From assembly GCF_002160985.1 (NCBI RefSeq), contig NZ_NFLQ01000002.1, positions 62,001-126,000 on the forward strand: DNA of 64,000 nt, given 5' to 3'. Shown piece by piece: positions 58,430 through 64,000 of the stretch. A model generated the notes under the pieces. That model ran no database searches and had not been told where the DNA came from. It worked only from the letters and a program-made list of their open reading frames with translations. The translations under genes and the position numbers were made by a program. How positions within the stretch are numbered: the first letter of the stretch is position 1; each line of letters starts with the position of its first letter. This DNA comes from Lachnoclostridium sp. An118 (GTDB taxonomy: Bacteria; Bacillota; Clostridia; Lachnospirales; Lachnospiraceae).

Positions 58430-59260
58430 ATGGCAGAGCAGCAAAACGGGTGCTCCCCCTCCGACTGTGCGGGGTGCGCCCATGCAGACTCCTGCGGCAG
58501 CAAGCCCCAGGATATGAGGGAACCGGCGAACCCGTTTTCCCATGTGAATAAAGTGATCGCCGTGGTCAGCGGAAAAGGCGGCGTGGGCAAGTCCATGGTG
58601 ACGGCCTCCCTGGCAAGGATCATGCGGGAGCAGGGATTTTCCGTGGGGATCCTGGATGCGGATATTACAGGGCCGTCCATCCCGAAGATGTATGGTATAC
58701 ACGAGACGGCAAAGGGGAGCGACGAGGGAATCTTCCCCAGCGTGGCAAAGGACGGCACGAAGGTCATGTCCGTCAACCTGCTCCTGGAGCATGAGTCTGA
58801 CCCGGTGATCTGGAGAGGTCCCATCATCGCGGGAGTGGTGAAGCAGTTCTGGACCGATGTTATGTGGGGGGAGCTGGATTATCTCTTTGTGGACATGCCT
58901 CCCGGAACCGGGGACGTGCCTCTCACGGTGTTCCAGTCCCTGCCGGTGGACGGTATCGTCATCGTCACCTCACCGCAGGACCTGGTGCAGATGATCGTGG
59001 ACAAGGCCTGCAACATGGCCCGGCAGATGAACATCCCGGTGCTGGGCATTGTGGAAAATTACAGTTATCTCGTATGCCCGGACTGCGGAAAGAAGATTTC
59101 TGTGTTCGGCGAGAGCCACATCGAGGAGACAGCCCGGGAACTGGGCGTGCCGGTCCTCGGGAAAATGCCTATTGACCCGAAGCTGGCGGAGTCCGTGGAA
59201 GAAGAACGATTCTACGAGGCGGACAACCAGTACCTGGCGGACGTGGTGAATAAGTTATAA
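58430..59260 (+). CDS. mrp: Mrp/NBP35-type Fe-S cluster carrier ATPase
   Basis: A 276-residue deviant-Walker P-loop ATPase. The N-terminal cysteine cluster GCSPSDCAGCAHADSC is like NBP35. The Walker A is SGKGGVGKSMV, followed by DADITGPSIPKMYG, DMPPGTGDVPLTV, and a C-terminal CPDCGKKISVFG with the paired cysteines that bridge a 4Fe-4S cluster in the dimer. It delivers clusters to apoproteins. The stop codon touches palindromic repeat copy 2. Confidence 0.94.
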   Translation: MAEQQNGCSPSDCAGCAHADSCGSKPQDMREPANPFSHVNKVIAVVSGKGGVGKSMVTASLARIMREQGFSVGILDADITGPSIPKMYGIHETAKGSDEGIFPSVAKDGTKVMSVNLLLEHESDPVIWRGPIIAGVVKQFWTDVMWGELDYLFVDMPPGTGDVPLTVFQSLPVDGIVIVTSPQDLVQMIVDKACNMARQMNIPVLGIVENYSYLVCPDCGKKISVFGESHIEETARELGVPVLGKMPIDPKLAESVEEERFYEADNQYLADVVNKL

Positions 59261-59310
59261 CGTAAATGGGGACGTAACCCTTTTTAAAAGGGTTACGTCC
59301 CCATTTACGT
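59260..59310 (+). repeat. dispersed palindromic repeat, copy 2
   Basis: ACGTAAATGGGGACGTAACC...GGTTACGTCCCC then ATTTACGT: a 25-bp perfect stem with a minimal TTTTTAAAA centre. It begins at the last base of the mrp stop codon. It shares the GGACGTAA/TTACGTCC core with copies at 12352 and 61695, while the outer arms differ. Confidence 0.9.
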
Positions 59311-59314
59311 TTGT

Positions 59315-59378
59315 TGGTGTGTAATTTTGTATCATCCCTTGCGGAAAAATGAACAAACTGGTGTGAAATTGTGTATCA
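59315..59378 (+). repeat. pair of 20-bp direct repeats
   Basis: TGGTGTGTAATTTTGTATCA (59315-59334) and TGGTGTGAAATTGTGTATCA (59359-59378) match at 18 of 20 positions with a 44-bp period. The second also reads TGTGA-N9-TCACA. They lie in the AT-rich gap between palindrome copy 2 and the SOS promoter. Confidence 0.7.
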
Positions 59379-59441: not shown

Positions 59442-59470
59442 TTGACATGTAGAACGTACGTTTGTATACT
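59442..59470 (+). promoter_or_regulatory. sigma-A promoter of the radical-SAM/DUF4130 operon
   Basis: A near-consensus TTGACA (59442-59447), 17-bp spacer, TATACT (59465-59470). Two LexA boxes overlap it. Confidence 0.9.
59452..59463 (+). promoter_or_regulatory. LexA/SOS box 1 (between -35 and -10)
   Basis: GAACGTACGTTT matches the Gram-positive LexA consensus GAACnnnnGTTC except at the last base. It lies inside the promoter spacer. Confidence 0.78.
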
Positions 59471-59477
59471 GAAATAA

Positions 59478-59489
59478 GAACGTATGTTC
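59478..59489 (+). promoter_or_regulatory. LexA/SOS box 2 (at the transcript start)
   Basis: GAACGTATGTTC is a full match to GAACnnnnGTTC, 7 bp past the -10, centred 26 bp from box 1. Confidence 0.88.
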
Positions 59490-59510
59490 TATATCGTTAA
59501 GAGGAGATGT

Positions 59511-60842
59511 ATGATCGTGGAACTTCAGCAGTCTATATCCATAGCTGACAAACTGAAAATACTGACTGACGCGGCCAAATATGACGTGGCCTGCACGTCC
59601 AGCGGGACCCAGCGCACCAATGACGGCACTGGCATAGGGAGCTGCGCCCAGGCGGGGATATGCCACAGCTTCTCCGCGGACGGGAGATGCATTTCCCTGC
59701 TGAAGATCCTGTTTACAAATGAGTGCATCTATGACTGCAAATACTGCATCAACCGCAGGAGCAACGATGTGCCCAGGGCCTCCTTTACGCCGGACGAGAT
59801 CTGTACGCTGACGATGGAGTTTTACCGGCGCAATTACATAGAAGGCCTGTTTCTGAGCTCTGGTGTGCTGAAAAGTCCGGATCATACAATGGAGCTTATC
59901 TATGCGGCACTCTATAAGCTGCGGACAACATACCGATTCCAGGGCTACATCCATGTGAAGGCTATTCCCGGCACCAGCCAGGAACTGCTGGAGAGGCTGG
60001 GATTTCTGGCGGACAGGATGAGCGTCAATCTGGAACTGCCTACAGCAGAGGGACTGCGCCTCCTTGCGCCCCACAAGACAAGAGAGAGGATCCTTGCGCC
60101 CATGCGGCTTGTGCAGAACAAAATGGAGGAAAACAGGCAGGAGATCCAGCTGTACCGGAATGTCCAGAGATTTGTGCCTGCCGGGCAGAGCACCCAGATG
60201 ATCATAGGCGCCACGCCGGAGACGGATTTTCAGATCATCCATGTGGCAGAGGCTCTCTATAAGAAGTTCGGGTTAAAGCGGGTGTTCTATTCTGCTTTTG
60301 TACCCGTAAATGAGGACGCCTCCCTGCCGGCCAGAACAGGGGAGGGGCCGCCACTCCTTCGGGAACACCGGCTGTACCAGGCGGATTTCCTGCTCCGGTA
60401 CTACCAGTTTCAGGCTGGGGAGCTCCTGACGGAGGAAGCCCCCAATTTTAATGTGTTCCTGGACCCGAAATGTAACTGGGCCCTGCGTCATCTGGAGGTT
60501 TTTCCAGTGGAGGTAAACACTGCGGGATATGAGCTCCTTCTCCGGGTGCCGGGCATCGGATACAGGTCGGCTGCCAGGATCGTGAAGGCCAGGCGTTACG
60601 GGAAGCTGGACTTTGGGGACCTGAAGAAAATGGGTGTGGTCCTCAAGCGGGCGCTGTACTTCCTGACCTGCGGCGGGAAGATGATGTATCCGGTAAAGCT
60701 CGAGGAGGATTATATTGCGCGCAATCTTTTGAATGTAAAGGAGAGACTGCCCGAGGGGGCGGATGGCATGACCTACAGACAACTCTCTCTTTTTGACGAT
60801 GCGAGATTTGGCAGCATGTCGGAGAAAGGAGGCACCATATGA
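59511..60842 (+). CDS. radical-SAM DNA modification/repair protein (TIGR03916 type)
   Basis: A 443-residue protein. Early cysteines (Cys28, 45, 51, 60) precede the radical-SAM motif CIYDCKYC (Cys72, 76, 79). A central barrel contains GLFLSSGVLKSPDHTMELI and MIIGATPETD. Near the C terminus LLRVPGIGYRSAARIVKAR is a helix-hairpin-helix DNA-binding motif, followed by GDLKKMGVVLKRALYF. I recognise it as the putative DNA modification/repair radical-SAM family; the reaction is unknown. ATG 59511 has GAGGAGA; an upstream ATG at 59484 lies within LexA box 2 and is rejected. Couples by 4 bp to the next gene. Confidence 0.9.
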   Translation: MIVELQQSISIADKLKILTDAAKYDVACTSSGTQRTNDGTGIGSCAQAGICHSFSADGRCISLLKILFTNECIYDCKYCINRRSNDVPRASFTPDEICTLTMEFYRRNYIEGLFLSSGVLKSPDHTMELIYAALYKLRTTYRFQGYIHVKAIPGTSQELLERLGFLADRMSVNLELPTAEGLRLLAPHKTRERILAPMRLVQNKMEENRQEIQLYRNVQRFVPAGQSTQMIIGATPETDFQIIHVAEALYKKFGLKRVFYSAFVPVNEDASLPARTGEGPPLLREHRLYQADFLLRYYQFQAGELLTEEAPNFNVFLDPKCNWALRHLEVFPVEVNTAGYELLLRVPGIGYRSAARIVKARRYGKLDFGDLKKMGVVLKRALYFLTCGGKMMYPVKLEEDYIARNLLNVKERLPEGADGMTYRQLSLFDDARFGSMSEKGGTI

Positions 60843-61615
60843 AAACCATTTACATCTGTACAGACAGCGTCACAGGGATTTTTTCTGCCGTGTACGAGGC
60901 GTGGAAGGAGCGCCGCCGGGAGGGTGCCAGTGGGATCGCCATCCGGGGCAGTGTGGATCCGCAGCTGTTCTGTGAGTACAGGGAGATTCCGGAAAATGAG
61001 AGCAGAGCGGAGGCTGTCGGGAAGATGATACTTACGAACCTGGGCAGGGATGTCTACCATCATATCTATTATGCGGCCCTCTCCCGGGATGGAGAAAAAG
61101 GGGAGGCGATCCTTGGGACGCTGCTGGCGGCCCGGAAGCTGAGACAGCCCCGGAAGATCATGGAGCATCTGGGGGATCCCGCTGTGGAAAAGGTGTTTGA
61201 GCTGAGCCGCAGCGTGGGAAATGAGGCCCATCTTCTGACAGGCTTTGTGCGCTTCCGGGAGCTGGAGAATGGGATACTCTTTGCAGATATCACACCGAAA
61301 AACCAGGTGCTTCCCTGTCTGGGGGCTCATTTTCAGGAGCGTTTTCCTCTGGAGAACTGGATGATCCGGGACAAAAACCGCAGTATGTTTGTGGTCCATG
61401 AGGCAGGAAAACGGTGGGTCCTTGTACAGGAGGAGGACCCGGAGGGGAGGATGGACGAGCAGCTGCTGCATCTCTCCGGCCAGGAGGAGAAAATGCAGGC
61501 GCTGTGGAGGGAGTTCTGTGACACTATTGCCATCAAGGAGAGGTTAAATCCCAAGCGCCAGAGGACTCACCTTCCGCTCCGTTACCGGCCTGATATGACA
61601 GAATTTGCAGGATAG
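60839..61615 (+). CDS. probable DNA metabolism protein (TIGR03915/DUF4130 type)
   Basis: A 258-residue protein. IYICTDSVTGIFSAVYEAWK opens it; VGNEAHLLTGFVRFRELENG and YADITPKNQVLP-like FADITPKNQVLPCLGAHFQERF form the DUF4130 core, and the tail has FCDTIAIKERLNPKRQRTHLPLRY, split here across conserved residues. This family almost always accompanies the preceding radical-SAM gene. Some relatives are annotated as uracil-DNA-glycosylase-like, but no activity can be read from the sequence. It starts within the stop of the radical-SAM gene and shares its SOS promoter. Confidence 0.87.
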   Translation: MKTIYICTDSVTGIFSAVYEAWKERRREGASGIAIRGSVDPQLFCEYREIPENESRAEAVGKMILTNLGRDVYHHIYYAALSRDGEKGEAILGTLLAARKLRQPRKIMEHLGDPAVEKVFELSRSVGNEAHLLTGFVRFRELENGILFADITPKNQVLPCLGAHFQERFPLENWMIRDKNRSMFVVHEAGKRWVLVQEEDPEGRMDEQLLHLSGQEEKMQALWREFCDTIAIKERLNPKRQRTHLPLRYRPDMTEFAG

Positions 61616-61742: not shown

Positions 61743-64000
61743 ATGGAAAAGCAACTGATTAAAATTTCGGTCCGGGCCCTGGTGGAGTTCATCCTCCAGA
61801 GCGGGGACCTTGACAATCGAACTGCCTCGGCGGACAAGGAGGCCATGCAGATGGGGGCCCGGCTCCACCGGAAGATCCAGCGGCAGACGGGGAGCATGTA
61901 CACGCCGGAGGTGTCCATGAAATGCCAGGTGCCCTACGAGAAGTTCATCCTCCAGGTGGAGGGGCGGGCGGACGGCGTCATGGACACGGAGGAGGGGCTG
62001 GTCATCGACGAGATCAAGGGGATATTCCGGGATGTGAACGCCCTGGAGGAGCCGGTGCCGGTGCACCTGGCCCAGGCCAAATGCTACGCTTTTATCTACG
62101 GGGACCAGCATGAGCAGGAGAGGATGGGCGTGCAGATGACCTACTGTCATCTGGAGACAGAGGAGATACGCCGGTTCCGGCAGGAGTACACCACAGAGGA
62201 GCTGAGAGAGTGGTTTTACGGCATCACGGACGCCTACGAAAAGTGGGCTCTCTTCCAGGTGGAGTGGAAGGAGAAGCGGAACGCTTCCATAAAAAAGGTG
62301 GAATTTCCCTACCAGTACCGGGACGGGCAGAAGAAGCTGGCGGCCGCTGTCTACAGGACCATTGAGAGACAGAAAAAGCTGTTCATCCAGGCTCCCACAG
62401 GGGTGGGAAAAACTATGGCCACTGTCTTTCCGGCTGTGAAGGCAGTGGGGGAGGGACTGGTGGACAAGCTCTTCTACCTGACCGCCAAGACCATCACCAG
62501 GACTGTGGCCCAGCAGGCCTTTGACATACTGAAGCAGCCCGGCCCGGATGGGCCCGCCGCAGTGGGGCCCGCTGCAGTGGAGGAGGGGGATACGGCTCTC
62601 CGGTACAAGGTCATCACCCTGACGGCAAAGGAGAAGATATGCTTCTGCGAGAAGCCGGAGTGCAATCCGGACTACTGTCCTTACGCCAAGGGACATTTTG
62701 ACCGTATCAACGATGCGGTCTATGACATGATCACCACCTCTGACGACATGAGCCGTCAGGCGGTGGAGGAGCAGGCGAAGAAATGGCAGGTGTGCCCCTT
62801 CGAGCTGGGTCTGGACCTGTCCCTGTGGGCGGACGCAGTCATCTGCGACTACAACTATGTCTTTGACCCCAACGCGAAGCTGAAGCGGTTTTTCGGCGAG
62901 GGGGTGAAGGGGGACTACATCTTCCTCATTGACGAGGCCCACAACCTGGTGGAGCGGGGACGGGAGATGTTCAGCGCCAGCCTCTGCAAGGAGGACGTGA
63001 TGAAGGTCCGCCGCCTTGTGAAGACGAGGGACGTCCGGCTTGCCCGGCAGCTGGAGGACTGCAACCGCCAGATGCTGGCCCTGAAACGGGAGTGCGACGG
63101 CTGCCAGGTGCTGGAGAGCGCCGGGGGCATCTACCTGAAGCTTCTGTCTGTCATGGCTGAGATGGAGCGGTATCTGGAGGAGTGCAAGGAGGAGGACGTC
63201 CGGGAGGAGGTGCTGAGCCTCTACTTTGAAGTGCGGATGTTTGAGACCATCTATGAAAAGCTGGACGAGAACTACATGATCTATTCCGAAATTGACGGGG
63301 AGGGAAAATTCTTTGTCCGCCTGTTCTGCGTCAACCCGGCGGTCAATCTGAACGAAGCTCTGGAAAAAGGGGTGAGCACCATCTTTTTCTCCGCCACCCT
63401 CCTTCCCATCCGCTATTACAGACAGCTCCTCAGCACAAAGACGGACGACTACGCGGTCTACGCCCAGTCCACCTTTGCCAGGGAGAACCGGCTCCTTCTC
63501 CTTGGAAATGACGTGAGCACCCGGTACACTGCGAGAGGGGAGGCCACCTACCGGAAATACGCCTCCTATCTGCTGGAGATGGTGCAGGGGAAAAAGGGAA
63601 ACTACATGGCCTTTTTTCCCTCCTACAAGTTCATGGAGGAGGTCTACGACCAGTTCCTCCTCCTGGCTGAAAAGGAGGATAGCAGCGCCCAGTGCATGAT
63701 CCAGGCCCCCTACATGTCGGAGGAGGCAAGAGAGATCTTTCTGGAGGAATTCGAGGAGGAGCGGGAGGAGAGCCTCCTTGGCTTCTGCGTCATGGGGGGC
63801 ATCTTCTCCGAGGGCATCGACCTGTCCAGAGACCGGCTCATCGGCGCCGCCGTGGTGGGCACCGGACTGCCCCAGGTGTGCCGGGAGAGAGAGCTCCTTA
63901 GGGAGTACTTTGACAAAAAGGGACTCCGGGGCTTTGACTACGCCTACGTCTACCCGGGCATGAACAAGGTCCTCCAGTCCGCGGGCCGGGTCATCCGCAC
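61743..64000 (+). CDS. PD-(D/E)XK nuclease fused to XPD/DinG-type helicase (3' end outside window)
   Basis: 752 codons are visible, with no stop before the window edge. Residues 60-116 hold a RecB/Cas4-like nuclease: GRADGV (Asp77), IDEIKG (Glu90, Lys92) and QAKCY (Gln111, Tyr115). Helicase motifs follow: Walker A APTGVGKT (217-224), a 4Fe-4S cysteine set (Cys300, 302, 307, 312, and QVCPFELG), the DEAH box LIDEAHNLV, and later SEGIDLSRDR-type motif V (FSEGIDLSRDRLIGAAVVG). XPD/DinG enzymes unwind 5' to 3'. A strong AAGGAGG lies at 61836-61842 before Met37, an alternative start that would shorten the N-terminal domain but keep the nuclease. Confidence 0.92.
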   Translation, partial: MEKQLIKISVRALVEFILQSGDLDNRTASADKEAMQMGARLHRKIQRQTGSMYTPEVSMKCQVPYEKFILQVEGRADGVMDTEEGLVIDEIKGIFRDVNALEEPVPVHLAQAKCYAFIYGDQHEQERMGVQMTYCHLETEEIRRFRQEYTTEELREWFYGITDAYEKWALFQVEWKEKRNASIKKVEFPYQYRDGQKKLAAAVYRTIERQKKLFIQAPTGVGKTMATVFPAVKAVGEGLVDKLFYLTAKTITRTVAQQAFDILKQPGPDGPAAVGPAAVEEGDTALRYKVITLTAKEKICFCEKPECNPDYCPYAKGHFDRINDAVYDMITTSDDMSRQAVEEQAKKWQVCPFELGLDLSLWADAVICDYNYVFDPNAKLKRFFGEGVKGDYIFLIDEAHNLVERGREMFSASLCKEDVMKVRRLVKTRDVRLARQLEDCNRQMLALKRECDGCQVLESAGGIYLKLLSVMAEMERYLEECKEEDVREEVLSLYFEVRMFETIYEKLDENYMIYSEIDGEGKFFVRLFCVNPAVNLNEALEKGVSTIFFSATLLPIRYYRQLLSTKTDDYAVYAQSTFARENRLLLLGNDVSTRYTARGEATYRKYASYLLEMVQGKKGNYMAFFPSYKFMEEVYDQFLLLAEKEDSSAQCMIQAPYMSEEAREIFLEEFEEEREESLLGFCVMGGIFSEGIDLSRDRLIGAAVVGTGLPQVCRERELLREYFDKKGLRGFDYAYVYPGMNKVLQSAGRVIR

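Follow-up and report, generated by a model that had tools for sequence, protein, structure and literature searches.

The stretch of Lachnoclostridium sp. An118 DNA analyzed here (64,000 nucleotides, positions 62,001 to 126,000 of contig NZ_NFLQ01000002.1; hereafter the window) contains an operon of two overlapping genes, which encode a radical S-adenosylmethionine (radical-SAM) protein of family TIGR03916 and a DUF4130 protein of family TIGR03915. We propose, with a probability of roughly 0.6, that the radical-SAM protein is an enzyme under SOS control that is tethered to the sliding clamp and acts on DNA lesions, with the DUF4130 protein as its near-constant partner. The components of this proposal, which is drawn from sequence, differ in firmness: SOS control of the operon is almost certain, docking of the radical-SAM protein on the clamp is very likely, and action of the pair on DNA lesions is probable. 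The features of the operon and its surroundings are the following:

59442..59470, + strand: sigma-70-type promoter TTGACA-N17-TATACT (-35 element 59442-59447, 17-nucleotide spacer 59448-59464, -10 element 59465-59470)
59452..59463, + strand: LexA box 1, GAACGTACGTTT, within the promoter spacer, starting at +10 from the -35 element, a slot common to orthologues
59478..59489, + strand: LexA box 2, a perfect GAACGTATGTTC, at the expected transcript start, +36 from the -35 element, a slot common to orthologues
59500..59506, + strand: likely ribosome-binding site AGAGGAG, read directly from the sequence
59511..60842, + strand: radical-SAM open reading frame (ORF), TIGR03916, 443 residues, from the ORF list and a profile match
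60780..60794, + strand: QLSLF, codons 424-428, sliding-clamp-binding motif in the disordered C-terminal tail (consensus from PMC12309361)
60839..61615, + strand: DUF4130 ORF, TIGR03915, 258 residues, without a uracil-DNA glycosylase (UDG) domain, from the ORF list and a profile match
59262..59308, + strand: strong intrinsic-terminator-like hairpin with a 20-pair stem (three overlapping calls of one hairpin, 0.1 expected)

A preliminary description of this DNA had reported the same promoter, with one LexA box in its spacer and a perfect box at the expected transcript start, ahead of two genes that overlap by 4 bp and belong to TIGR03916 and TIGR03915, and had placed them under LexA/SOS control. 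The sequence coordinates agree with this layout, including the overlap (60839-60842), and both family assignments hold, as the profile matches exceed their cut-offs. The promoter is exactly what a promoter scan returns (11/12 matches); box 1 differs by one base from a perfect palindrome, and box 2 starts 8 nucleotides past the -10 element. The start of the radical-SAM gene was set at 59511 because a longer listed start, 59484, falls within box 2, and AGAGGAG precedes 59511. The proposed LexA control is likewise borne out, both by the rarity of such box pairs in the genome and by their recurrence upstream of orthologues, as described below.

By itself, one GAACN4GTTC site in the 64-kb window is not significant, as 0.85 are expected by chance, and a looser 14-base box pattern is no commoner there than chance (7 versus 8.35 expected); the significance of a single box was rejected on this ground, and box pairs and orthologues were used instead. 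Across the 3.47-Mb genome, GAACN4GTTY occurs at 66 distinct places (84 rows, 18 of which are the second strand of palindromes). Only three pairs of boxes lie at most 50 bp apart genome-wide, at lexA, at a Y-family polymerase gene (L015) and at the radical-SAM/DUF4130 operon, as compared to the ~0.06 pairs that we calculate for 66 random sites. The genome has one LexA match, and its gene carries two boxes of its own. A survey of every perfect site (18) and of 20 GTTT-type sites out of 48, in which position at a gene start was judged by frame and profile coordinates, placed six of the perfect sites at gene starts: those of lexA, recA, two Y-family polymerases, a cytosine-5 methyltransferase (L014) and the radical-SAM/DUF4130 operon. 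Eleven of the remaining 12 lie inside ORFs longer than 400 nucleotides and one (L016) is intergenic. GAACN4GTTT sites precede rarA/mgsA (L018:2042-2053; MgsA_C domain) and a DECH/DEAH helicase gene (L020:1976-1987), whose product matches TIGR03817 with 523 bits, below the cut-off of 874, over a stretch that the end of the locus truncates, and which we take to be MrfA-like. The methyltransferase box is a perfect LexA-type GAACGATCGTTC located 10 bp before the ORF (L014:2010-2021, contig C31), which suggests that this cytosine-5 DNA methyltransferase is under SOS control as well.

The preliminary description had proposed looking for LexA boxes upstream of orthologues in Clostridia, and at the same place; they are found on both counts. 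Among 120 same-family genomes, of which G000 is one, TIGR03916 is matched over its cut-off in 67, and TIGR03915 in the identical 67 (the two lists were matched by eye, and the G017 match contains a stop); matches below the cut-off occur in G025 (a radical-SAM fragment), G072 and G074 for TIGR03916, and in G073 for TIGR03915. All but one of the 67 genomes have a single TIGR03916 match over the cut-off, and G045 has a second, partial one. A strict box was defined as GAACN4GTTY or RAACN4GTTC within -200 to +10, and 66 same-family loci, the window among them, were scored (L099 was dropped, as it has no upstream DNA). Such a box is present in 56 of the 66, where dinucleotide shuffles yield 0.82, and at least two are present in 30, where shuffles yield 0.000; the remaining DNA of these 66 loci, 264 kb, holds 14 boxes. 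A phylum-wide draw of 299 genomes contained 65 over the TIGR03916 cut-off, from which 64 loci were read (L143 is below the cut-off; G264 was left out), and boxes occur in 39 of the 63 with usable, non-identical upstream DNA. In a further set of 80 named loci, at least one box was found in 48 and at least two in 22, with loci that lack a called start counted as misses. The boxes also recur at set positions: 72 loci, drawn from all locus sets and including the window, combine a box with a promoter-like match, and of their 105 boxes, 65 (a raw count, with no null) start in three slots relative to the -35 element, -22 to -20 (15 boxes), +9 to +11 (19) and +35 to +38 (31). Box pairs (n = 55) are spaced by 25-30 bp in 16 cases and by 54-64 bp in 25. 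The double operator thus placed looks like a conserved design rather than a local accident. The operon has the features of the Firmicutes LexA/SOS regulon: a GAACN4GTTC-type operator over the promoter, LexA in the genome, and operators kept in orthologues.

The radical-SAM protein matches TIGR03916 over its full length with 685 bits (cut-off 343.5), and this is its sole NCBIfam match at E up to 0.001; Pfam matches are Radical_SAM and HHH_3. The cluster motif C72-x3-C76-x2-C79 is invariant in 17 diverse and 61 closer proteins, as are two extra cysteines, C51 and C60, and a helix-hairpin-helix is located at about residues 333-363. Its predicted structure is good (predicted local distance difference test, pLDDT, 84.3; predicted template modelling score 0.82), except for a disordered tail at residues 410-443 with a pLDDT of about 37. 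The best Foldseek matches are ordinary radical-SAM barrels (HydE, HydG, ThiH, biotin synthase, lipoyl synthase and MiaB; best E 8.8e-09), so that the protein combines the CX3CX2C cluster motif with a radical-SAM barrel, as does the TIGR03916 family. In L052, L083, L090 and L094, a variable insertion of tens of residues is found at about residues 215-221, just before a conserved AGQSTQ. A relative on a Gemmatirosa plasmid (L250) is divergent (303 bits, below the cut-off of 343.5) and has no equivalents of C51 and C60; its next ORF is not DUF4130, and QLSLW is still located near the protein end.

The disordered tail carries the motif QLSLF, which the preliminary description overlooked. Bacterial clamp-binding motifs have the stated consensus QL[S/D]LF; the motif of PolC is QLSLF, with a dissociation constant of 3.8 uM for Bacillus subtilis DnaN (PMC12309361; papers are cited throughout for those passages that we covered). 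DnaN is present in the genome. Among 192 radical-SAM homologues with non-identical tails, the strict motif occurs in the last 75 residues of 157, as compared to about 1.65 expected from shuffled tails, and in the rest of none (mean length of the rest, 364 residues); it occurs anywhere in only 3 of 130 DUF4130 proteins. A broader form of the motif is present in 188 of the 192 tails and in the rest of 40 of the 192 proteins. In alignment A2, columns 424-428 are Q in 100%, L in 66%, S in 95%, L in 80% and F in 98% of sequences, as compared to mostly <50% elsewhere in the tail. Related C-terminal ends are found in other lineages: QLSLF in Thioclava and Azospirillum, QLSLL in Caballeronia, QLALI in Paracoccus, QLSLGF in Acinetobacter and QLLLDFGE in Bacteroides. 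Similar motifs are present in the products of other boxed genes, QLDMF in the Y-family polymerase L015 and QMTLF near the N-terminus of RarA. The protein therefore has a QxxLF-type motif in an accessible, conserved segment, as expected of a sliding-clamp-binding protein. The clamp motif of the TIGR03916 family was not found in the literature searched, whose coverage is thin on subscription papers; no paper found there joins a clamp-binding motif, or the sliding clamp plus LexA, with radical SAM, and the papers that contain both sliding clamp and radical SAM concern other subjects, as judged by title and the start of the abstract.

The DUF4130 protein matches TIGR03915 with 237.9 bits (cut-off 112.25) and PF13566 with 164.1 bits (cut-off 27), and its structure is predicted with a pLDDT of 93.9. 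Seven residues (E129, R138, F165, R168, D178, R235 and E255) are invariant in alignment A3 of 71 DUF4130 proteins. Its best Foldseek matches include PAP phosphatase, NrnA, RecJ and Cdc45, which we take to be members of the DHH superfamily. Assignment as a DHH phosphoesterase was rejected: the resemblance is weak (best E 2e-4, TM 0.41), comparison with a profile of six NrnA-sized DHH proteins from relatives gives a probability of 0.4%, near the 0.2% of a negative control, and the seven invariant residues sit in the C-terminal half. Of the 67 family loci, 66 have the DUF4130 gene directly downstream of the radical-SAM gene. The exception is G031, whose radical-SAM gene is interrupted by the end of a contig; its remainder, followed by DUF4130, is on a different contig. 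In a profile search of all frames near the radical-SAM gene, a DUF4130-like one turned up at 66 of 67 family, 59 of 64 phylum-wide and 78 of 80 named loci. The family locus without one is the split L100, and the L154 locus stops 51 nucleotides behind the radical-SAM gene.

Several observations weigh against the proposal or limit how far it reaches. A shuffled region yields a mean of 1.2 promoter-like matches, so that the promoter by itself is weak evidence. The strict box is missing from 10 of the 66 same-family loci. At three of these (L052, L083 and L090), the gene start is miscalled, and boxes lie close to where the gene probably begins; at L079, they stand at -299 and -362; and at L045, L050, L065, L080 and L088, they deviate from the strict form by one or two bases. 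This leaves L094, where the upstream DNA has only a poor match. Phylum-wide, the boxes are less regular than in the family, and some stand at unlikely distances. As for the clamp motif, many of the 192 proteins are closely related to one another rather than independent, and 35 of the tails are without the strict form. Most of these deviate slightly from it (QISLF, QVSLF, QLCLF, QLALF) or extend it to six residues (QLSWDF, QLPLDF); no good motif is seen in L082 and L129, and the L100 protein is truncated at its end. The boxed Y-family polymerase L009 and RecA of the same genome have no such motif. Because the broader motif also occurs in 39 of the 130 DUF4130 proteins, it is the strict form and its position that carry weight. 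With regard to the reaction, no solved relative fixes it: the Foldseek barrels are generic, matches of the radical-SAM protein to Protein Data Bank (PDB) profiles are limited to the helix-hairpin-helix and to short radical-SAM stretches, and the DUF4130 protein has no sequence relative among the PDB profiles at E up to 1. Finally, a search confined to the loci finds no DUF4130-like frame near L112, L122, L143, L145, L209 and L215, with 1.4 to 2.6 kb of downstream DNA at the first four. Such loci speak against DUF4130 as an obligate partner; it is a near-constant partner, not a universal one. L145 retains a perfect LexA-type box upstream.

The proposed enzyme would work as follows. LexA bound to the two operators, in the promoter spacer and at the transcript start, would keep the operon off, as sequence and conservation support, until RecA filaments trigger its self-cleavage and the operon is released. 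The TIGR03916 protein would then bind DNA through its helix-hairpin-helix domain, and the QLSLF in its flexible tail, for which motif and conservation speak, would dock it on DnaN in the manner of PolC, bringing the pair to damaged DNA at or behind replication forks. There, a 5'-deoxyadenosyl radical may reverse or remodel a base lesion; radical-based reversal is our leading guess for the chemistry. The most likely role of DUF4130 is to recognize the damaged strand or to position it, given that the alpha- and betaproteobacterial loci read encode this domain as a fusion with UdgX, a protein that bonds covalently to abasic sites derived from uracil. A more specific version, in which a replisome-tethered machine repairs or remodels damaged template bases at stalled forks, ahead of translesion synthesis or in its place, with DUF4130 as lesion-recognition subunit and UdgX as an add-on of some Pseudomonadota, is possible and is put forward tentatively. 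We know of no other replisome-tethered radical-SAM enzyme.

The UdgX fusions lend themselves to a different explanation, namely a base-excision system in which the pair prepares or marks uracil-type lesions for a UDG that would act in trans here. In all four of the alpha- and betaproteobacterial loci read, the partner consists of DUF4130 and a UDG domain annotated as UdgX family; the two fusions that were scanned match TIGR03915 plus TIGR03914, and features described for UdgX (PMC10359453) recur, with GEQPG in all four and a KRRIH or KRRLH loop in three. The Thioclava loop, however, is KQWLH. A COG1573-COG4277 operon of Bacteroidetes has been read in print as a UDG-based repair system (PMC8565304), but the window partner is DUF4130 only and lacks the UDG domain that marks that operon, and the sole PF03167 match of the genome is a family-1 Ung on a different contig. 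Because DUF4130 is unfused in the Bacteroides and Acinetobacter loci, and the next ORF in the Bacillota phylum set is at most 318 residues, too short for a UDG fusion, UDG is an optional part of the system. The pair persists without UdgX, so UDG is not its core, and we regard the base-excision explanation as unlikely.

Somewhat less probable still is direct reversal of an ultraviolet (UV) or oxidative thymine lesion in the manner of spore photoproduct lyase. DUF4130 has been linked to SplB-like radical-SAM photolyases (PMC3765255). The combination of radical-SAM and helix-hairpin-helix domains in one protein fits this explanation, as do the two invariant extra cysteines, one of which could be a hydrogen donor. 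Yet the exclusive match to TIGR03916 speaks for another family, neither the 50 best Foldseek matches shown nor the PDB profile hits (E up to 1) include spore photoproduct lyase, and the close relatives are anaerobes of animal guts, where UV is scarce. The pair might instead modify undamaged DNA or a non-chromosomal nucleic acid, for example in phage defence, with SOS control reflecting stress from phages or mobile elements. This we consider very improbable: the family name does include 'DNA modification', a boxed cytosine-5 methyltransferase occurs in the same genome, and relatives are found on 158 plasmid and 10 phage records, but a scan of IMG/VR yields only 2 relatives, 66 of the 67 family genomes have a single match over the cut-off, under control of core-SOS type, and the clamp motif points to replication. 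A phage origin was also considered on account of the 10 matched phage-collection records and was set aside in view of the 2 IMG/VR loci; the gene is treated as bacterial. Because there are only 2 such loci, the 'Bacteriophage sp.' records with relatives may be bacterial contigs. One of these, an unverified fecal record (L253, MT835514.1), carries a relative with adjoining DUF4130 and box-like sequences upstream.

The operon of the window is set apart from the upstream gene, which encodes an Mrp/NUBPL-type ATPase, by the terminator-like hairpin that lies between them; the stretch 59258-59320 folds with -42.1 kcal/mol (z -9.35). On the other side, a gene for a PD-(D/E)XK plus XPD/DinG-like helicase (61743-63998) begins 127 bp downstream of the pair and leaves the window, and the gap before it holds a palindrome, GGACGTAA...TTACGTCC, related to the upstream hairpin.

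The pair is common, both in the same family (67 of 120 genomes) and in the Bacteroidota and Pseudomonadota loci read, and no assigned reaction was found for it. Both families are also matched in Caulobacter vibrioides, a laboratory species that served as a control. The clamp tail and the SOS control narrow the question from DNA modification or repair in general to a lesion treated at the replication fork. To our knowledge, spore photoproduct lyase is the main established case of radical chemistry on DNA, and a radical-SAM enzyme linked to the replisome would, if the proposal is true, be a new mode of repair. The preliminary description had called this an undescribed system, which stands in part: no reaction or substrate of the pair is given in the passages of the literature covered, but LexA control has already been predicted (PMC3828012, PMC8565304). 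What the present analysis adds to the printed record is the clamp motif.

Other records of the gene or its relatives concern expression and annotation. Its expression is raised in Acinetobacter Tol 5 at 8% humidity (PMC13130816) and, alongside that of uvrC and nth, in F. nucleatum grown in co-culture (PMC9848294); it is named in a Sphingomonas genome (PMC9611098), and a radical-SAM protein of the same name is tabulated in PMC8307549; DUF4130 has been called a predicted mutagenesis-related enzyme (PMC3765255). A study of C. difficile LexA describes GAACN4GTTC-type boxes, and the term 'radical SAM' does not appear in the portions of its main text covered (PMC4234289).

Compared with known systems, the operon most resembles CAC3343-CAC3344 of Clostridium acetobutylicum, for which LexA control was predicted in 2013 on the basis of box conservation and of expression shared with lexA and recA (PMC3828012). 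This is the same gene pair with the same predicted control, likened by description only, and the prediction rules out that LexA control is new in Clostridia; the passages covered do not say which domain CAC3344 has, and they mention neither a double operator nor a clamp motif. The COG1573-COG4277 operon (UDG plus radical SAM), which is LexA-regulated in Bacteroidetes, with Verrucomicrobia and Alphaproteobacteria also cited (PMC8565304), likewise has two genes, one of them radical-SAM, under SOS control. The window operon differs from it in its partner, which is DUF4130 alone with no UDG or UdgX, in its GAACN4GTTC-type Firmicutes box and in its two operators. This comparison takes COG4277 to be the same radical-SAM family as TIGR03916. 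Both proteins are full-length matches, far over the cut-offs, to TIGR03916 and TIGR03915 of NCBIfam and PF13566 of Pfam, whose names and descriptions, as shown, are silent on clamp binding and operators. UdgX (PMC10359453), fused to DUF4130 in the alpha- and betaproteobacterial versions read, is absent from the window operon. SplB is similarly a radical-SAM enzyme of DNA repair, and it belongs to a different family, which is absent from the profile and fold matches seen. With clamp-binding proteins such as PolC, the motif reference (PMC12309361), and the Y-family polymerases, the window protein shares a QL[S/D]LF-type motif, but it is a radical-SAM enzyme with predicted clamp binding rather than a polymerase or an AAA+ ATPase.

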